From the IMG/VR virus record IMGVR_UViG_3300032046_000073, positions 1 to 41,078 of that record: a stretch of 41,078 nt of DNA; one strand, written 5' to 3'. The notes beneath the pieces were generated by a model. The model saw only the letters and a program-made list of their open reading frames with translations, was not told where the DNA came from and did not search any database. The stretch is from a virus. The translations under genes were made by a program, and so were the position numbers. Within the stretch, counting starts at the first letter, position 1; the number at the start of each line of letters is the position of its first letter. Shown here in pieces: positions 1,344 to 41,078 of the stretch.

Positions 1344-1498
1344 TTTTCCTCTAATTCCTTAAGTTTTTTTTGACAGAGTTCGACCTCTTCTTCCCATAAC
1401 TGCTTTTCTCTGTCATCGTGATAATTCCTTGTTTTGGGCACATTTAAAGCGGCGTCTAATCGTCGTTGCCAATAGATTTTGGGTTCTTGCCATTCCAT
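1340..1498 (-). CDS. Small hypothetical protein (52 aa)
   Basis: ATG at 1498 is preceded by GAGGT at good spacing. The product begins MEWQEPKIYWQRRLDAALNV and ends in a charged helix (EEEVELCQKKLKELEEK). It overlaps the SSB-like gene by 4 bp, so the two are translationally coupled. It follows a 110-nt leader with two strong hairpins (1512-1602). No family recognised. Confidence 0.7.
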   Translation of the reverse strand: MEWQEPKIYWQRRLDAALNVPKTRNYHDDREKQLWEEEVELCQKKLKELEEK

Positions 1499-1511
1499 TT
1501 AAACCTCGCTA

Positions 1512-1570
1512 TGGCTGGCTTGTGATGGGCGGAAGGGAATTTCACCACTTCCGACCAGTCAAACCAGCCA
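1512..1570 (-). other. Nested inverted repeat downstream of the lysin gene
   Basis: TGGCTGG (1512-1518) pairs with CCAGCCA (1564-1570), enclosing CGGAAG/CTTCCG (1530-1535 with 1548-1553). It lies just before the 52-residue gene and next to the terminator-like hairpin at 1575-1602. The outer GGCTGG/CCAGCC stem is shared with the hairpin at 8486-8554. Confidence 0.55.
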
Positions 1571-1574
1571 AGGC

Positions 1575-1602
1575 GAAGCCCCAAGCCTTCCCTTGGGGCT
1601 TC
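1575..1602 (-). terminator. Strong GC-rich hairpin after the lysin gene
   Basis: Perfect 11-bp stem GAAGCCCCAAG (1575-1585) with CTTGGGGCTTC (1592-1602) and a 6-nt loop, 7 nt after the stop of the lytic enzyme gene. There is no clear T run on the minus-strand 3' side, so termination would be partial, or the hairpin protects or processes mRNA. Confidence 0.55.
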
Positions 1603-1608
1603 TAATTG

Positions 1609-2226: not shown

Positions 2227-2820
2227 TTAAATTGCAGTTTTTATCACCTTGTTTTGAAAGTATTTTATCCAATAACCTCTATTATGATTTGTTTTGGCGT
2301 GGCAAGGACGACAAAGCATAATTAGATTTTCTGGATTACAATTTTTCTTATCGTAATCTATATGATGAATATCAAAGACCCAGTCTCCTTGTAAGTTTCC
2401 ACATATTTGGCAAGTATATTTATCTCGTTCCCTGATACTTCTTTTTAAGGTTTGTGTCCAATTGATTGTATAGGGTTCAAAGGATATTCCACCCCTCCAT
2501 AAATTATTCAATATCCCCCGTCGAGCAGATTGTCTCATCTTTTTTTTCGTTTCCTCTGTATGTTTTCGTCCTAAGTTATCTTTATGTCCCATACTGGCTA
2601 ACCCAATTCTCTTTTTTGTTTCTTTAGAATGTTTTTTACCCTTCATCGGACTTGGTTTCCCTTTGTGAGATTCACTAATTTTCTTTTTCCATTCTTCTGA
2701 TAATTTTTTATTCTTATGAGCTTTACTTATTTTTCTTTTAGATTCATTAGAATGATGTTTACCGAGCATTCCTTTTAAGGGTAAATGACCCTTTTTAAAA
2801 GATGTTGAGCTTTTAGCCAT
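2227..2820 (-). CDS. HNH homing endonuclease with NUMOD3 repeats
   Basis: 197 residues. The first ~110 hold several copies of the NUMOD3 DNA-binding motif (GKHHSNESKRKIS, GKKHSKETKKRIG, GRKHTEETKKKM). An HNH nuclease domain follows: CQICG, then FDIHHIDYDKKNCNPENLI, then LCRPCH. Free-standing enzymes of this kind cut intron- or gene-specific sites and spread their own gene. Start ATG at 2820 overlaps the stop of the 52-aa membrane protein (TAATG). A paralogue with the same tail (GGISF, IHHIDY or VHHIDY, NRSYWIKYF) is at 20852-21397 but is broken by an amber codon. Unlike three other HNH genes here it has no promoter 6 nt upstream. Confidence 0.9.
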   Translation of the reverse strand: MAKSSTSFKKGHLPLKGMLGKHHSNESKRKISKAHKNKKLSEEWKKKISESHKGKPSPMKGKKHSKETKKRIGLASMGHKDNLGRKHTEETKKKMRQSARRGILNNLWRGGISFEPYTINWTQTLKRSIRERDKYTCQICGNLQGDWVFDIHHIDYDKKNCNPENLIMLCRPCHAKTNHNRGYWIKYFQNKVIKTAI

Positions 2821-3142: not shown

Positions 3143-3171
3143 ATTATAACATACTTATATATTTTTGTCAA
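3143..3171 (-). promoter_or_regulatory. Consensus sigma70 promoter for the RHH regulator unit
   Basis: On the minus strand TTGACA (3171-3166), a 17-bp spacer and TATAAT (3148-3143), both boxes perfect. The 17-nt gap to the ATG at 3126 holds a GAGGT ribosome site, so this mRNA has a short normal leader. Confidence 0.9.
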
Positions 3172-5380: not shown

Positions 5381-5516
5381 CTCCACCTCCTAAATACGCT
5401 ATTATTATTTGTCTAATAAACTCACTTGTAGAACTTTTTTGTTTAGCCGCCGCAATAACAACTTCATACCATAAATCGTCATCAATTCTTAAACTTCTTA
5501 CCGGCCACTTGTCCAT
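5361..5516 (-). CDS. Second ribbon-helix-helix protein
   Basis: 51 residues, ATG at 5516 with AAGGAGG 5 nt upstream. Strand PVRSLRIDDDLW, helix YEVVIAAAKQKSS, then STSEFIRQIIIAYL: the RHH pattern of CopG/ParG-type regulators. A glycine run (GGGGG) near the end coincides with the ribosome site of the next gene. It heads the chain down to 3229 and sits downstream of the gap 5517-6038, so it may bind there; CACTTGTC-type words at about 5506 and 5561 could be operators. Confidence 0.8.
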   Translation of the reverse strand: MDKWPVRSLRIDDDLWYEVVIAAAKQKSSTSEFIRQIIIAYLGGGGGKISE

Positions 5517-5585
5517 AAAACCTCCTTGTTTACTATGTAATACGCAATAAGGTTACCCCCACTTGTCCAGCCGTTGTCCTTCCCT

Positions 5586-5723
5586 TTAACTTATGAGTGT
5601 CCTTCTCCAGCCAAATATGTTTTTACTTGTATTTGGCCAAGTGAGGTTTTTAAAACGACAAGTTATGAGGTTAAGGTATCCGTGTGTCCCGAACTTGTGA
5701 TCAAATTGTTTAAAGTCGCTCAT
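5586..5723 (-). CDS. Doubtful small ORF (45 aa)
   Basis: MSDFKQFDHKFGTHGYLNLI and on to TLIS. Only a weak ribosome site (AGGC) precedes the ATG at 5723, and composition gives little support. It fills the stretch 5517-5754, where I see nothing else certain. Confidence 0.25.
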   Translation of the reverse strand: MSDFKQFDHKFGTHGYLNLITCRFKNLTWPNTSKNIFGWRRTLIS

Positions 5724-5754
5724 CACGCCTATCGGTGGTTAGTGGCACGACTAA

Positions 5755-5790
5755 CTAAAAAAGCCCTCCTAAATTGATAGGTGGGACTTC
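5755..5790 (-). terminator. Intrinsic terminator of the small RNA
   Basis: Minus-strand GTCCCACCTA, a 6-nt loop, TAGGAGGGC, then TTTTTT. The stem has one A-A mismatch. A clear rho-independent terminator. Confidence 0.8.
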
Positions 5791-5868
5791 TTTAGATGAT
5801 ATAGAGTAATCACGAGATTTCTCTCGCAACACAATATTTTTTAAATTGTGGATGATTACTCTCATCAT
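5755..5868 (-). ncRNA. Free-standing small RNA with three-way junction and terminator
   Basis: Promoter 5903-5875 should start RNA near 5868. The transcript folds simply: GAGTAATCA pairs with TGATTACTC, enclosing CACAAT/ATTGTG and a CGAGA-GAAA-TCTCG hairpin with a GNRA tetraloop. It ends with a terminator: CCC-A-CCTA paired with TAGG-A-GGG, then CTTTTTT (5755-5790). There is no ribosome site or ORF of note. Length, about 110 nt, fits a regulatory small RNA. No known family recognised. Confidence 0.7.
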
Positions 5869-5874
5869 ATTTAT

Positions 5875-5903
5875 ATCCTATCACACTTTAAATCTTTTGT
5901 CAA
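5875..5903 (-). promoter_or_regulatory. Promoter of the small RNA
   Basis: TTGACA (5903-5898), 17-bp spacer, TAGGAT (5880-5875), with a TGA extension just before the -10. No ribosome site follows; the structured RNA begins directly. Confidence 0.8.
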
Positions 5904-5911
5904 GTGCCTTG

Positions 5912-10187: not shown

Positions 10188-10747
10188 ATTAACTTATCCT
10201 TTTTGTAATCTTTCCATCTTTTTTTAGAATTTTCGCTTCCAGTGATAAATTGTATATTTTTAAGAGTATAATTCTTATCATTGTTTATCCTATCAAGGGT
10301 CGGTCTGTACTTATACTTGAATCCACCTTTGACCCAATTTTTATAAATCCTTATTAAACTATCTGATTTTTCTGCTATTTTTTTAAACTCCTCGAAAGTA
10401 AAAAACAATTTTCTTTTTTTATATGTATCATCTTTTTTAATCCTATATCCAATCCATAAATACATATTTCTGATTATAACCTCTAACTTTTTTTTATAAA
10501 CAATGTCATATTCTCTTTTTTTCTCATAATCATAGGAACTTTTTATTCGTTCTAATGCAGATTCACGATTTTTTTTGTACCACTTTTTAGATTTTTCTTT
10601 TATTATCTCTTTGTTTACAGAGTATCTTTTTTTTGCTTCAAAAGAATGACAGCTTTTACAAATTCCAATATATCCATCTTTGTATTCTGTATTAGCATAA
10701 AAATCGGTTAATGGTAATTTTTTGTTACACTTTTTACATATTTTCAT
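10184..10747 (-). CDS. HNH-type homing endonuclease interrupting the peptidase gene
   Basis: 187 residues. An N-terminal zinc knuckle (MKICKKCNKKLPLTDFY, ICKSCHSFEAKKRY), a long basic helical stretch, then the nuclease core YRPTLDRINNDKNYTLKNIQ followed by FITGSENSKKRW. This D-R-I-N/D-N form of HNH is common in phage free-standing homing enzymes. Its ATG is exactly 6 nt after a TATACT box, so it should be made from a leaderless mRNA with no ribosome site. Insertion between codons for ..NFL and KNDGW.. splits the peptidase gene. Very AT-rich. Confidence 0.85.
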   Translation of the reverse strand: MKICKKCNKKLPLTDFYANTEYKDGYIGICKSCHSFEAKKRYSVNKEIIKEKSKKWYKKNRESALERIKSSYDYEKKREYDIVYKKKLEVIIRNMYLWIGYRIKKDDTYKKRKLFFTFEEFKKIAEKSDSLIRIYKNWVKGGFKYKYRPTLDRINNDKNYTLKNIQFITGSENSKKRWKDYKKDKLI

Positions 10748-10753
10748 ATCTAA

Positions 10754-10782
10754 AGTATAACACTTTTTTATTTGGTTGTCAA
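10754..10782 (-). promoter_or_regulatory. Leaderless promoter of the HNH gene
   Basis: TTGACA (10782-10777), 17-bp spacer, TATACT (10759-10754), then 6 nt to the ATG at 10747. The TGA of TTGACA is the stop codon of the upstream peptidase half. Same geometry at 34711-34739 and 31669-31697. Confidence 0.9.
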
Positions 10783-13245: not shown

Positions 13246-13274
13246 TTTTTCCTTTCTAAATGATTATACATCAC

Positions 13275-13303
13275 TTGACAAAAATTTATGTTTGTGATAT
13301 AAT
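13275..13303 (+). promoter_or_regulatory. Consensus plus-strand promoter of the structured RNA
   Basis: TTGACA (13275-13280), 17 bp, TATAAT (13298-13303), with TGA directly before the -10 (extended). It is the strongest promoter on the plus strand and points against all neighbouring genes. No ribosome site follows for more than 400 nt. Confidence 0.9.
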
Positions 13304-13309
13304 AAATTA

Positions 13310-13720
13310 TGAAAATTTAGTTAGCTGTGAGAAGTTCGTACGAGCTTCAGGAAATTGGCTCGCATGGTCGGCTCACAGCTAACATGCGAGCCTTTTTAAT
13401 ACGCTAACAAGAGAAGAACTCGGTTTAGCAAGTCGTAGGAGAATGTGAGAGTAGGGGTTGACTACTAAGCTGGCTCTCACAGACTGGGAAACGACTTTAA
13501 AGAAGCACCTGAAGCTCGGAATTCTCTTTTAGCATTTACAAGTTAATGTTACGAAATCTAAGTTGGAAATCATCCAGAATGAAACTTATAAAGTAGAAAA
13601 CTTGTCAAAAGAATTTTTAAGTAGCCCAGTAAAAACGGCAGTCTCACCTTCTCCGTCAAACCTGATGGGGAAGGGGGGTATTGGCAGCAAGTAGTAAATT
13701 GGTTAATTAAAATAAGTTAA
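13310..13720 (+). ncRNA. Large, highly structured non-coding RNA
   Basis: No ORF of note, but many long perfect complementarities. S1 13321-13331 with 13372-13382 (11 bp); S2 13341-13351 with 13508-13518 (11 bp); S3 13357-13366 with 13383-13392 (10 bp, then TTTTT); S4 GCTAA-c-AAGAGAA 13403-13415 with 13522-13533 (12 bp, one bulge); S5 13430-13436 with 13491-13497; S6 13445-13451 with 13474-13480; S7 13538-13544 with 13599-13605; S8 13647-13658 with 13663-13674 (12 bp, AACC loop); ACTGGG 13483-13488 with CCCAGT 13625-13630. S1 and S3 interleave as a pseudoknot, and S2 crosses S1 and S3. Size and ornate pairing recall phage-associated large RNAs such as ROOL or GOLLD, but I cannot assign a family. 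3' end uncertain. Confidence 0.85.
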
Positions 13721-13729
13721 GGTGCGAAT

Positions 13730-13903
13730 ATGAACAAATGGCGGCAGGCAATTAAAGAAAATATCTTATTGATTATCATATCTCTAATTGTGATTATAAT
13801 TTTATTTGTTATTTTTAATGAATCTGATCTCTTTCCCTTTGCTTTACTCATATTTCTTTGTGGACTTTTTCTTGGACTCAATCCTTGGAAAAGAATACTT
13901 TAA
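13730..13903 (+). CDS. Small membrane protein, only plus-strand gene (57 aa)
   Basis: ATG 13730 follows AAGGTG. MNKWRQAIKENILLIIISLI starts a first helix (LLIIISLIVIIILFVIF); a polar NESDLF turn leads to a second (FALLIFLCGLFLGL), ending NPWKRIL. It abuts the stop of the convergent 1260-residue gene. It is probably co-transcribed with the structured RNA. Function unknown. Confidence 0.65.
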   Translation: MNKWRQAIKENILLIIISLIVIIILFVIFNESDLFPFALLIFLCGLFLGLNPWKRIL

Positions 13904-20862: not shown

Positions 20863-21397
20863 CGCCGAGCCTCTTTTCTTGAAAATATTTTATCCAATAA
20901 CTTCTATTATTATTTGTTCCCGCATGACAACTTCCACAAAGTGTAATTAAGTTATCAGGACAACAATTTTTCTTATTATAATCAATATGATGAACTATCC
21001 ACCCATTCTTACTACAAATTTGACAGACAAATTTATCTCGTTGTCTAATACTCGTTTTTAAAGTTTCTGTCTAGTCGGTAGTATATAGTAAAAAAGATAT
21101 TCCACCCTTCCATGAAGGACTATTCTCGCCACAATATTTTCCAATTCTTGCTAAACTTAATTTCTTTCTATGTTCTTCTGAAAGTTTCTTTCCTTTGTTC
21201 CAAGAGATTCTGCCCTTTAATGATATGCTCAACTTTTTCTTTGTTTCTTCTGATAAATGTTTGCCTAACGTATGACGAGAATGATTTTCACTTATTTTTT
21301 TTCTAACTATTTCCTCAACAGGTCGTCCTTTATTCCAAGGAGTATATCCTCTTTGAAAACCTTGAGTTTTTTTTCGTGGGTAAACACCTATTGGCAT
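20852..21397 (-). pseudogene. NUMOD3-HNH homing endonuclease broken by an amber codon
   Basis: The first 108 codons (MPIGVYPRKKTQGFQRGYTP, NUMOD3 motifs GKHLSEETKKKLS and GKKLSEEHRKKLS) end at a TAG (21071-21073). The same frame then continues 72 codons with an intact HNH domain: VCQICSKNGWIVHHIDYN, NLITLCGSCHAG, SYWIKYF. In the paralogue at 2227 the matching position is Trp (NWTQTLK against D-stop-TETLK), so one G-to-A change (TGG to TAG) explains the break. TAG ends other genes here, so recoding is unlikely. It is inserted between the beta-propeller gene and the gene at 20611. Confidence 0.85.
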
Positions 21398-38039: not shown

Positions 38040-39629
38040 TTACCTCACCCTCCCCGGCATTTGCTTTTTTGTCTCATTGTCATCTGGTATTTCACAAATT
38101 AGGCTCTCTGAACTAATTAGCATGCAACTCATTGACACCGCATTTTCAATTGCTTTTCTTGTAACTTTAATGGGGTCTATAATTCCCGCCTCGACCAAGT
38201 CCTTAAATTCATTCTTCTTAGCATCCCAGCCCCAACTCAAATTCTTATTTTCTAAAATCTTTTCAATTATTGTCTCTGGATTTTTACCAGCATTCTCAAC
38301 AATCTTTTTAATTGGAGCTTTTATCGCTTCATAAAATATTTGTTCACCTAAATCTTGAGTTTCCTTAACCAATCTTAGCAAGACCACACCGCCCCCCGCC
38401 ACAATACCCTCCTCGACCGCCGCTCTTGTGGCAGCTAAGGCATCCTCTATCTTGTGTTTTTTATAGATTAACTCTTGCTCGGTAGCCGCCCCAATTCTAA
38501 TTACTCCAATCCCACCTGATAATCTCGCTATTCGTTCTTTAATTTTATCTCGATCAAAGTCCGAAATAGCTTCTTTATAACCCTGCTTTAAGATTTTGAC
38601 TCTATCTTTTATTTTTTTATCACTTCCACCTCCCTTTACGATAATCGTATAATCGTGTTTTGAAATTACTCTCTCTGCCGAACCTAAATCCTGCGATGTG
38701 ACATCCTCTAATTTATCAATATCTTTGGAAATAAACTTTGCCCCACAAGCCACCGCAATATCTTCGCCTTGATTAGTTCTCTCCTCATCAAGTCCAGGAA
38801 GTCTTATCACTAAAAACGAAAATATATTTTTAATTGTATTTGTTACAGCCGTAGTTAGAGCTTCGTTTTTCATATCATCGCAGATTATCACTAATCCTTT
38901 AATGCCTTTAGCTAAAAGTCCGTCTGCTAAAGGTGATAATTCCTCATTAATAGAAATTATATGATCTGTTACCAATATTGGTACATCTTCATAGACCGCT
39001 TCTTGTCTGAAGGGATTAGTCATCAAATAGGGAGTGATAAAACCCTGCTCAAACTTAATTCCTTTTGCGACATCTTTTTCGAGTTTTATATCCTTTGAAG
39101 TCTCAACTGTAATAGCTCCGTCTTTACCAACCTCGTGCATCATTTCACCAATAAGTTTACCAGTAACTTCATCTTCAACCGCGATAGTAGCCACTTGGAC
39201 TAACTCCTCAATAGAGTTCAGTGGTTTTGATATTTTTTTAAGAGCTTCGATTGTTTCTTTTGATGCTCGTTCAATCCCTTCTTTAATCTCGATCGGGTCC
39301 CGGCCAGAAAGAATGTATTTAACCCCCTCGTTTGCTAAAGAGGCAGCAAGTATTACTGCCGTTGTTGTTCCATCACCCGGCTCGTTTTGTTTGGTTGCGA
39401 CTTCCTTTATAGACTGAACCCCCACATTAACCCAAGGGTCTTTAGTTTTGTTAAAAAATGATGCTATTGATACACCATCATTAGTGATAATAGGTGGTGC
39501 TGTATCCCTCGACAAAATAGCATTTTTCCCTTTTGGGCCAAGAGTAGCGCCAACCGCCTTTGATACGATATTAATCCCCTCTAATAGTTTCGCCCGGGCA
39601 TTATCACCAAAAATAACTTCCTTACTCAT
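38040..39629 (-). CDS. groEL: GroEL-like chaperonin
   Basis: 529 residues, close to the usual ~545. ATP-site motifs are intact: AVGATLGPKGKNAILSRD, NDGVSIASF, EPGDGTTTAVILAASL (Asp86), KIEDALAATRAAVEEG and GIVAGGGVVLLRL. The apical domain (EQGFITPYLMTNPFRQEAVY, ICDDMKNEALTTAVTNTIKN) is more divergent from bacterial GroEL, and the C-terminus (ETKKQMPGRVR) lacks the GGM tail. It should fold phage proteins, perhaps capsid, together with the GroES at 39817. Start overlaps the stop of the small gene at 39629. Confidence 0.93.
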   Translation of the reverse strand: MSKEVIFGDNARAKLLEGINIVSKAVGATLGPKGKNAILSRDTAPPIITNDGVSIASFFNKTKDPWVNVGVQSIKEVATKQNEPGDGTTTAVILAASLANEGVKYILSGRDPIEIKEGIERASKETIEALKKISKPLNSIEELVQVATIAVEDEVTGKLIGEMMHEVGKDGAITVETSKDIKLEKDVAKGIKFEQGFITPYLMTNPFRQEAVYEDVPILVTDHIISINEELSPLADGLLAKGIKGLVIICDDMKNEALTTAVTNTIKNIFSFLVIRLPGLDEERTNQGEDIAVACGAKFISKDIDKLEDVTSQDLGSAERVISKHDYTIIVKGGGSDKKIKDRVKILKQGYKEAISDFDRDKIKERIARLSGGIGVIRIGAATEQELIYKKHKIEDALAATRAAVEEGIVAGGGVVLLRLVKETQDLGEQIFYEAIKAPIKKIVENAGKNPETIIEKILENKNLSWGWDAKKNEFKDLVEAGIIDPIKVTRKAIENAVSMSCMLISSESLICEIPDDNETKKQMPGRVR

Positions 39630-40723: not shown

Positions 40724-41078
40724 TCATATTTTCCCTTCCCAAAGTATCTTTGCTTTTCTGCCCCCGTGCAATCTCCAAGTAGTCCCATCAAAACTTGGCA
40801 CTAATCCTTGTTTCCACAAATCAACAGCAGGTTTAAAAGGATAAACGCCTTTTCTGATTTTCAATTTTTTGTAATCTACATATTTCCATTCTTTTAGGAG
40901 AAATAAAGAACCAATATAAGACCAGACCGAATCCCCGACCGAATCCCCGACCGAAGCCCAGACCGAAGCCCCGACCGAATCCCCGACCGAAGCCCAGACC
41001 GAAGACCAGACCGAATCCCCGACCGAATCCCCGACCGAAGCCCAGACCGAAGACCAGACCGAATCCCCGACCGAATCC
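40724..41078 (-). CDS. Repeat protein with SV tetrads, C-terminal part (5' end cut by window)
   Basis: The frame enters from the window end in tetrads such as DSVG, ASVW and DSVW and then reads SYIGSLFLLKEWKYVDYKKL, KIRKGVYPFKPAVDLWKQGL, VPSFDGTTWRLHGGRKAKIL, WEGKI-stop (TGA at 40724-40726). It is the expected tail of the protein that begins at 647; together they would give one protein of at least 330 residues. The repeat number cannot be known from this assembly. The next gene's ribosome site lies in its stop. Confidence 0.8.
   Translation of the reverse strand, partial: DSVGDSVWSSVWASVGDSVGDSVWSSVWASVGDSVGASVWASVGDSVGDSVWSYIGSLFLLKEWKYVDYKKLKIRKGVYPFKPAVDLWKQGLVPSFDGTTWRLHGGRKAKILWEGKI
40919..41078. 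repeat. 12-bp tandem repeat array (right end)
   Basis: About 13 units, same consensus as at 1-255. 41001-41078 equals 43-120 exactly (78 nt). Array boundary toward the gene end is at ATAAGACCAGACCG. Confidence 0.95.

Follow-up and report, generated by a model that had tools for sequence, protein, structure and literature searches.

RNA-controlled accessory cassettes in phages are, to our knowledge, represented by a few cases only (P4, P1 and Gifsy-1). In the c4 leader of phage P1, complementary segments located upstream and downstream regulate their own transcript, either its termination or its expression, and the RNA is processed out. The P4 CI RNA/seqA-seqC system likewise uses upstream and downstream complementary leader segments for this control (PMC4825925). 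The IsrK locus of the Salmonella prophage Gifsy-1 gives rise to a short RNA and a readthrough isrK-orf45 mRNA from one promoter (PMC4825925). IsrK has two folds that differ by about 1.5 kcal/mol; the short RNA ends at a Rho-independent terminator and pairs on its own mRNA, thereby opening the ribosome-binding site of an ORF (PMC4825925). ROOL and GOLLD are marked by a homo-oligomeric cage. These RNAs range from several hundred nt to more than 800 nt and are often, not universally, found near tRNA islands (PMC12286853). Here we analyze a locus of an uncultivated phage that resembles IsrK and transcription attenuators in its layout and that we tentatively read as a terminator-gated leader.

Results

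An insert at a variable site of a podovirus-like phage genome

The window, that is, the whole 41-kb record analyzed here, comes from a podovirus-like uncultivated phage encoding a terminase, a portal, a major head protein, a T7-type internal virion protein and GroEL. These genes and all neighbors of the element at 13275-13720 lie on the minus strand, which bears out the original prediction of an RNA opposite in strand to the genome. The phage has few close relatives (three IMG/VR contigs), alignment of the major head protein against bacterial genomes revealed no prophage, and a tRNA search of the window returned none. The element sits in an insert with the following features:

13246..13903, whole insert, between a 111-aa gene and the gene for the 1260-aa internal virion protein
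13275..13303 (+), sigma-70 type promoter TTGACA-17-TATAAT, a 12/12 match with TG before the -10 (extended -10)
13320-13331/13372-13383 (+), S1, perfect Watson-Crick helix of 12 bp, antiterminator candidate
13320..13383 (+), S1 extended loopward by CGAGC (13341-13345) with GCUCG (13358-13362) into one long hairpin
13341-13351/13508-13518 (+), S2, perfect 11-bp long-range helix that closes a multi-branch junction and crosses S1
13357-13366/13383-13392 (+), S3, perfect 10-bp helix with TTTTTAAT directly after it, intrinsic-terminator candidate (13357..13400)
13403..13429 (+), small hairpin GCUAA/UUAGC
13430..13497 (+), two-helix hairpin (13430-13436/13491-13497 and 13444-13452/13473-13481; z -4.05 for 13395-13500)
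13647..13674 (+), 12-pair hairpin without a U-tract, outside the significant core
13730..13903 (+), 57-aa (57-codon) ORF with two hydrophobic stretches, preceded by the Shine-Dalgarno-like AAGGTG at 13719-13724

The insert is absent from the relative G003, in which the homologues of the two neighboring genes abut (L055 9225/9238). The relative G001 has another cassette at this place, likewise antisense (L051:14465-15457), in which a TTGACA-17-TATACT promoter is accompanied by three ORFs (27, 186 and 65 aa). The 27-aa and 65-aa ORFs encode almost only hydrophobic helices, the latter with two hydrophobic stretches. None of these ORFs has sequence similarity to the 57-aa ORF, and the G001 cassette shows neither a structured leader nor a family match. 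Because one relative lacks the insert and another holds a different cassette, this is a cargo site for cassettes of small membrane-protein genes; the structured RNA arrived with, or evolved inside, one such cassette. The insert has the features of a phage moron in being located between conserved genes, having its own promoter, being oriented for transcription opposite to its surroundings and varying between relatives. A downstream terminator of the cassette's own was not found.

Other parts of the record also deserve mention. The GroEL gene (38040-39629, minus strand) matches the phage chaperonin family with E 4e-115. A 12-nt tandem array is present at both record ends (8-336 and 40846-41078), which suggests that the genome is circular or terminally redundant and was opened within a repeat. 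A NUMOD3/HNH endonuclease gene (2227-2820, minus strand) has a partial DNA copy (75-80%) at 20873-21116, 18.6 kb away, and similar pieces are present in G001 too. At 1344-1608 (minus strand) a strongly paired structure (z -3.7) is found where an intergenic stretch begins.

A perfect promoter ahead of the element

The promoter at 13275-13303 (+) is a consensus one, as originally predicted, and places the expected transcription start at about 13309-13311 on the plus strand. Perfect TTGACA-17-TATAAT sites number two in the window against 0.03 expected from shuffles; the second is at 3171 on the minus strand. No good minus-strand promoter was identified near the structured element. Elsewhere, at 10747-10782 (minus strand), a TTGACA-17-TATACT sequence lies so close to the following gene that 7 nt separate its -10 from the ATG, which has the look of a leaderless mRNA.

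Three perfect helices and a core of about 200 nt

S1, S2 and S3 all fall within 200 nt of the plus strand. Among 300 dinucleotide shuffles, Watson-Crick helices of at least 10 bp occurred once in 25 and twice in 2, and no shuffle had three. The three perfect helices announced by the original prediction are present, at 12, 11 and 10 bp instead of 10-11. The extended S1 arms (26 nt) are 77% complementary, and 13310-13400, which contains the S1 hairpin, folds at -33.3 kcal/mol (z -4.5). The junction closed by S2 contains S3 and the hairpins at 13403..13429 and 13430..13497.

The predicted fold of 13310-13720 (+) reaches -128.9 kcal/mol versus -96.4 in shuffles (z -5.1, 0/100). The significance is concentrated in a core of about 200 nt (13320-13518) within 13310-13530 (+) (z -5.8, 0/200 shuffles), and the 3′ half is ordinary (z -0.4 for 13531-13640 and -1.9 for 13600-13729). 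The claim that the pairing exceeds chance therefore holds for the core and fails for the 3′ half, and the description of about 400 nt with at least eight long helices was overstated. The tertiary contacts proposed alongside it also survive in part. S2 was said to cross both other helices; it crosses S1 and encloses S3. S1 and S3 do interleave with abutting 3′ strands, yet base 13383 is common to both. A 6-bp match between 13483-13488 and 13625-13630 exists, but simple arithmetic gives about 20 such matches by chance in a sequence of this length.

The minus strand of the core folds equally well (z -6.1). Fold energy does not choose between the strands, and the assignment to the plus strand is made because both the promoter and the T-tract point to it. 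Together, these results give good support to a structured RNA that is driven by its own promoter and runs antisense to the other phage genes.

A terminator-like hairpin in competition with S1

S3 is followed at once by TTTTT, forming a terminator-like hairpin 90 nt behind the promoter and on the same strand (z -6.2 for S3 with its U-tract). A search of both strands of the 41 kb for hairpins of this kind (perfect stem of at least 9 bp, loop up to 20, T5) returned S3 alone, with 0.03 expected; a standard terminator scan, whose loop limit is 8, missed it. The S3 loop measures 16 nt and holds the S1 3′ strand, and its U-tract consists of five U and then AA. Termination at S3 may therefore be weak, given the long loop and the short U-tract.

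The long S1 hairpin takes up the 5′ arm of S3, the common bases being 13357-13366 and 13383. Within 13310-13400 the S3 state amounts to -32.5 kcal/mol, so that only 0.8 kcal/mol separates it from the S1 state (-33.3) once the U-tract is made. When growing prefixes were folded, S1 stood at 100% until the S3 3′ arm was complete, S3 then rose from 7% to 33% as the U-tract was added, and S3 together with S2 was fully dominant once 13518 was out. The sequence thus contains the parts of an attenuator, namely a candidate intrinsic terminator in the leader (with a long, 16-nt loop) and a rival hairpin that shares bases with it and has similar stability. With a single base in common, S1 and S3 need not exclude each other and might form together as a pseudoknot; a static S1+S3 pseudoknot requires the 5-nt loop 13367-13371 to span S1.

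The S2 strands also have a bearing on the predicted short RNA. The first 90 nt contain an 11-nt perfect complement to the later leader (13341-13351 with 13508-13518; p ~0.008, as in 0.8% of shuffles the first 90 nt find an 11-nt complement in the remainder). As far as sequence can tell, a short RNA terminated at S3 would be complementary to its own readthrough transcript.

The window has a second leader of like plan at 5387-5906 on the minus strand (fold z -3.15). Its promoter-like sequence is 79% alike over 43 nt to the one at 13275. After it come a hairpin of 75 nt, another that is terminator-like and has a U6 run, some 240 nt of further structure and a 44-codon ORF, whose product by eye resembles a ribbon-helix-helix repressor.

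The downstream ORF

The 57-codon ORF was below the size of the first ORF list. Its product, judged by the two hydrophobic stretches, is probably a small two-helix membrane protein. It showed no family match and no relatives in phages or viral contigs, and an ORF without a homolog could be non-coding. Pairing of 13508-13518 was predicted to uncover its ribosome-binding site. The folds did not clearly support this expectation: the predicted unpaired probability was 0.37 in the full fold and 0.42 with 13508-13518 blocked, and ranged from 0.37 to 0.48 between states, so predicted accessibility changes little.

Searches for families and homologs

The Rfam covariance-model search proposed with the original prediction was carried out over 4227 families, including ROOL, GOLLD, OLE and HEARO, and none reached its gathering threshold; at E up to 10 there was only a chance-level Dictyostelium match (E 0.26) on the other strand. 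Distant blastn of the RNA in phages and plasmids found nothing. Exact 15-mers occurred in 47 stretches of viral contigs, and the flanks of none resembled the element. Helix-pair patterns (S1 and S2 in viral contigs, S1 in bacterial genomes), whose hits were checked by eye and with a covariance model built from the one sequence, gave chance matches only. That model had no match on the three relatives, and no second copy of the element exists in the window. Because the scan patterns catch near relatives only, the absence of homologs is weak evidence. Within the collections searched, the suggestion that the RNA belongs to no recognized family, and may be new, is upheld.

Several known classes were rejected. 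An intron is incompatible with an insert that sits between genes with no plus-strand gene flanking it. Integron attC sites, HDV-like ribozymes and RNase P did not fit by eye in helix order or motifs and were not found by Rfam; a tmRNA did not fit by eye and was found by neither ARAGORN nor Rfam.

Discussion

Our leading interpretation, held tentatively and at a little short of even probability, is an autonomously transcribed cassette of the moron type whose leader would be a terminator/antiterminator transcription switch placed before a small membrane-protein gene. A terminator-gated leader would account most simply for the promoter, the competing hairpins, the U-tract, the closing helix and the ORF. 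In its favor, the promoter and the only such terminator-like hairpin are 90 nt apart on the same strand, and each was expected 0.03 times. The cassette would comprise a strong promoter, a structured 5′ leader and the gene for the 57-aa probable membrane protein, facing against the late genes. The long S1 hairpin would form first and sequester the S3 5′ arm. Were S1 opened or outcompeted, S3 could form ahead of UUUUU and transcription would stop, leaving an RNA of about 90 nt; otherwise polymerase would read on, the S2-closed junction would form and the 57-aa ORF would be transcribed. The short RNA might in addition bind readthrough transcripts in trans, its stem-loop with the S2 5′ strand pairing to 13508-13518, in the manner of IsrK. 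Against a switch, no known ligand, protein or upstream ORF is evident that would throw it.

An unlikely alternative, though the one that survives best, is a stand-alone trans-acting RNA of at least 200 nt in which S1, S2 and S3 form simultaneously in one intricate pseudoknot; the downstream ORF would then be there by coincidence, and the T-run would not serve as a terminator. S2 and the 13403-13497 domain, themselves non-random and located past the putative terminator, would suit a functional RNA that runs through, as would the abutting S1 and S3 3′ strands with their single shared base and the lack of any known family. Such an RNA would need 5 nt to span the 12-bp S1, leaves unexplained both the T-tract exactly after S3 and the Shine-Dalgarno sequence and ORF on the same strand, and has no homologs showing conservation.

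Somewhat less probable still is that the main product is an sRNA of about 90 nt, from the promoter to the S3 terminator, whose targets would lie in the host or the phage, or in its own readthrough transcript in the style of IsrK, P4 CI and P1 c4. The promoter-terminator spacing is exactly that of an sRNA gene, and the apical part of the S1 hairpin carries the 11 nt complementary to 13508-13518. An sRNA of this kind has no conserved target, the phage genome contains few other exact 12-nt matches to it, all unremarkable, and the structured domain downstream would be superfluous. We are equally doubtful of a compact phage RNA of a new class, with an S1/S3 H-type pseudoknot, an embedded terminator and S2 closing the structure, which would be trans-acting or would sense a ligand or protein and travel as mobile cargo.

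It is improbable that the element works on the minus strand, as an intercistronic structure of the late-gene transcript, or as DNA through its inverted repeats, with the plus-strand promoter serving the small ORF only. The minus-strand core does fold well and perfect inverted repeats are strand-symmetric, but the T-tract exists on the plus side of S3 only, and the promoter aims into the element with nothing between and has no good minus-strand counterpart nearby. Chance pairing in an intergenic insert is very improbable: although homologs and covariation evidence are lacking and one unusual element was picked from a 41-kb window, none of the shuffles equaled the locus in helices (0/300) or energy (0/100 and 0/200), and the promoter and terminator signals fit each other in both position and strand.

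If the terminator-gated leader is real, the present locus would add an unrelated further design from an uncultivated phage lineage and would suggest that such leaders, with self-complementary short RNAs, are a recurrent restraint on phage cargo genes; being a single sequence without relatives, it stays a candidate.

Like ROOL and GOLLD, the element is phage-encoded and structured and has pseudoknot potential. The original prediction likened it to these large RNAs, a likeness that its core of about 200 nt, the tRNA-free window and the Rfam result do not support. The terminator-like hairpin and the downstream ORF suggest a leader or switch instead. With attenuators and riboswitches the locus shares two competing hairpins, one of them followed by a U-run, before an ORF. 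It differs in that the terminator candidate is placed 90 nt into the transcript, some 330 nt short of the ORF, and is followed by a structured domain, and in having no recognized aptamer or leader peptide. As in P4 CI and P1 c4, complementary segments are found upstream and downstream in the leader; those RNAs are cut out by processing, whereas here a candidate intrinsic terminator would provide the 3′ end.

IsrK offers the closest parallels, since both loci have one phage promoter, a short terminated RNA (predicted here) contained in a readthrough leader, a small ORF downstream, two folds of near-equal energy and complementarity of the short RNA to a downstream part. The two have no sequence match, the complementary site here lies some 200 nt ahead of the ORF, and predicted accessibility of the ribosome-binding site barely changes. 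The choice between folds would decide the terminator hairpin here, whereas in IsrK it decides translation. Belonging to none of the sequence families tested, the element resembles, in its anatomy, an attenuator or a locus of the IsrK type.
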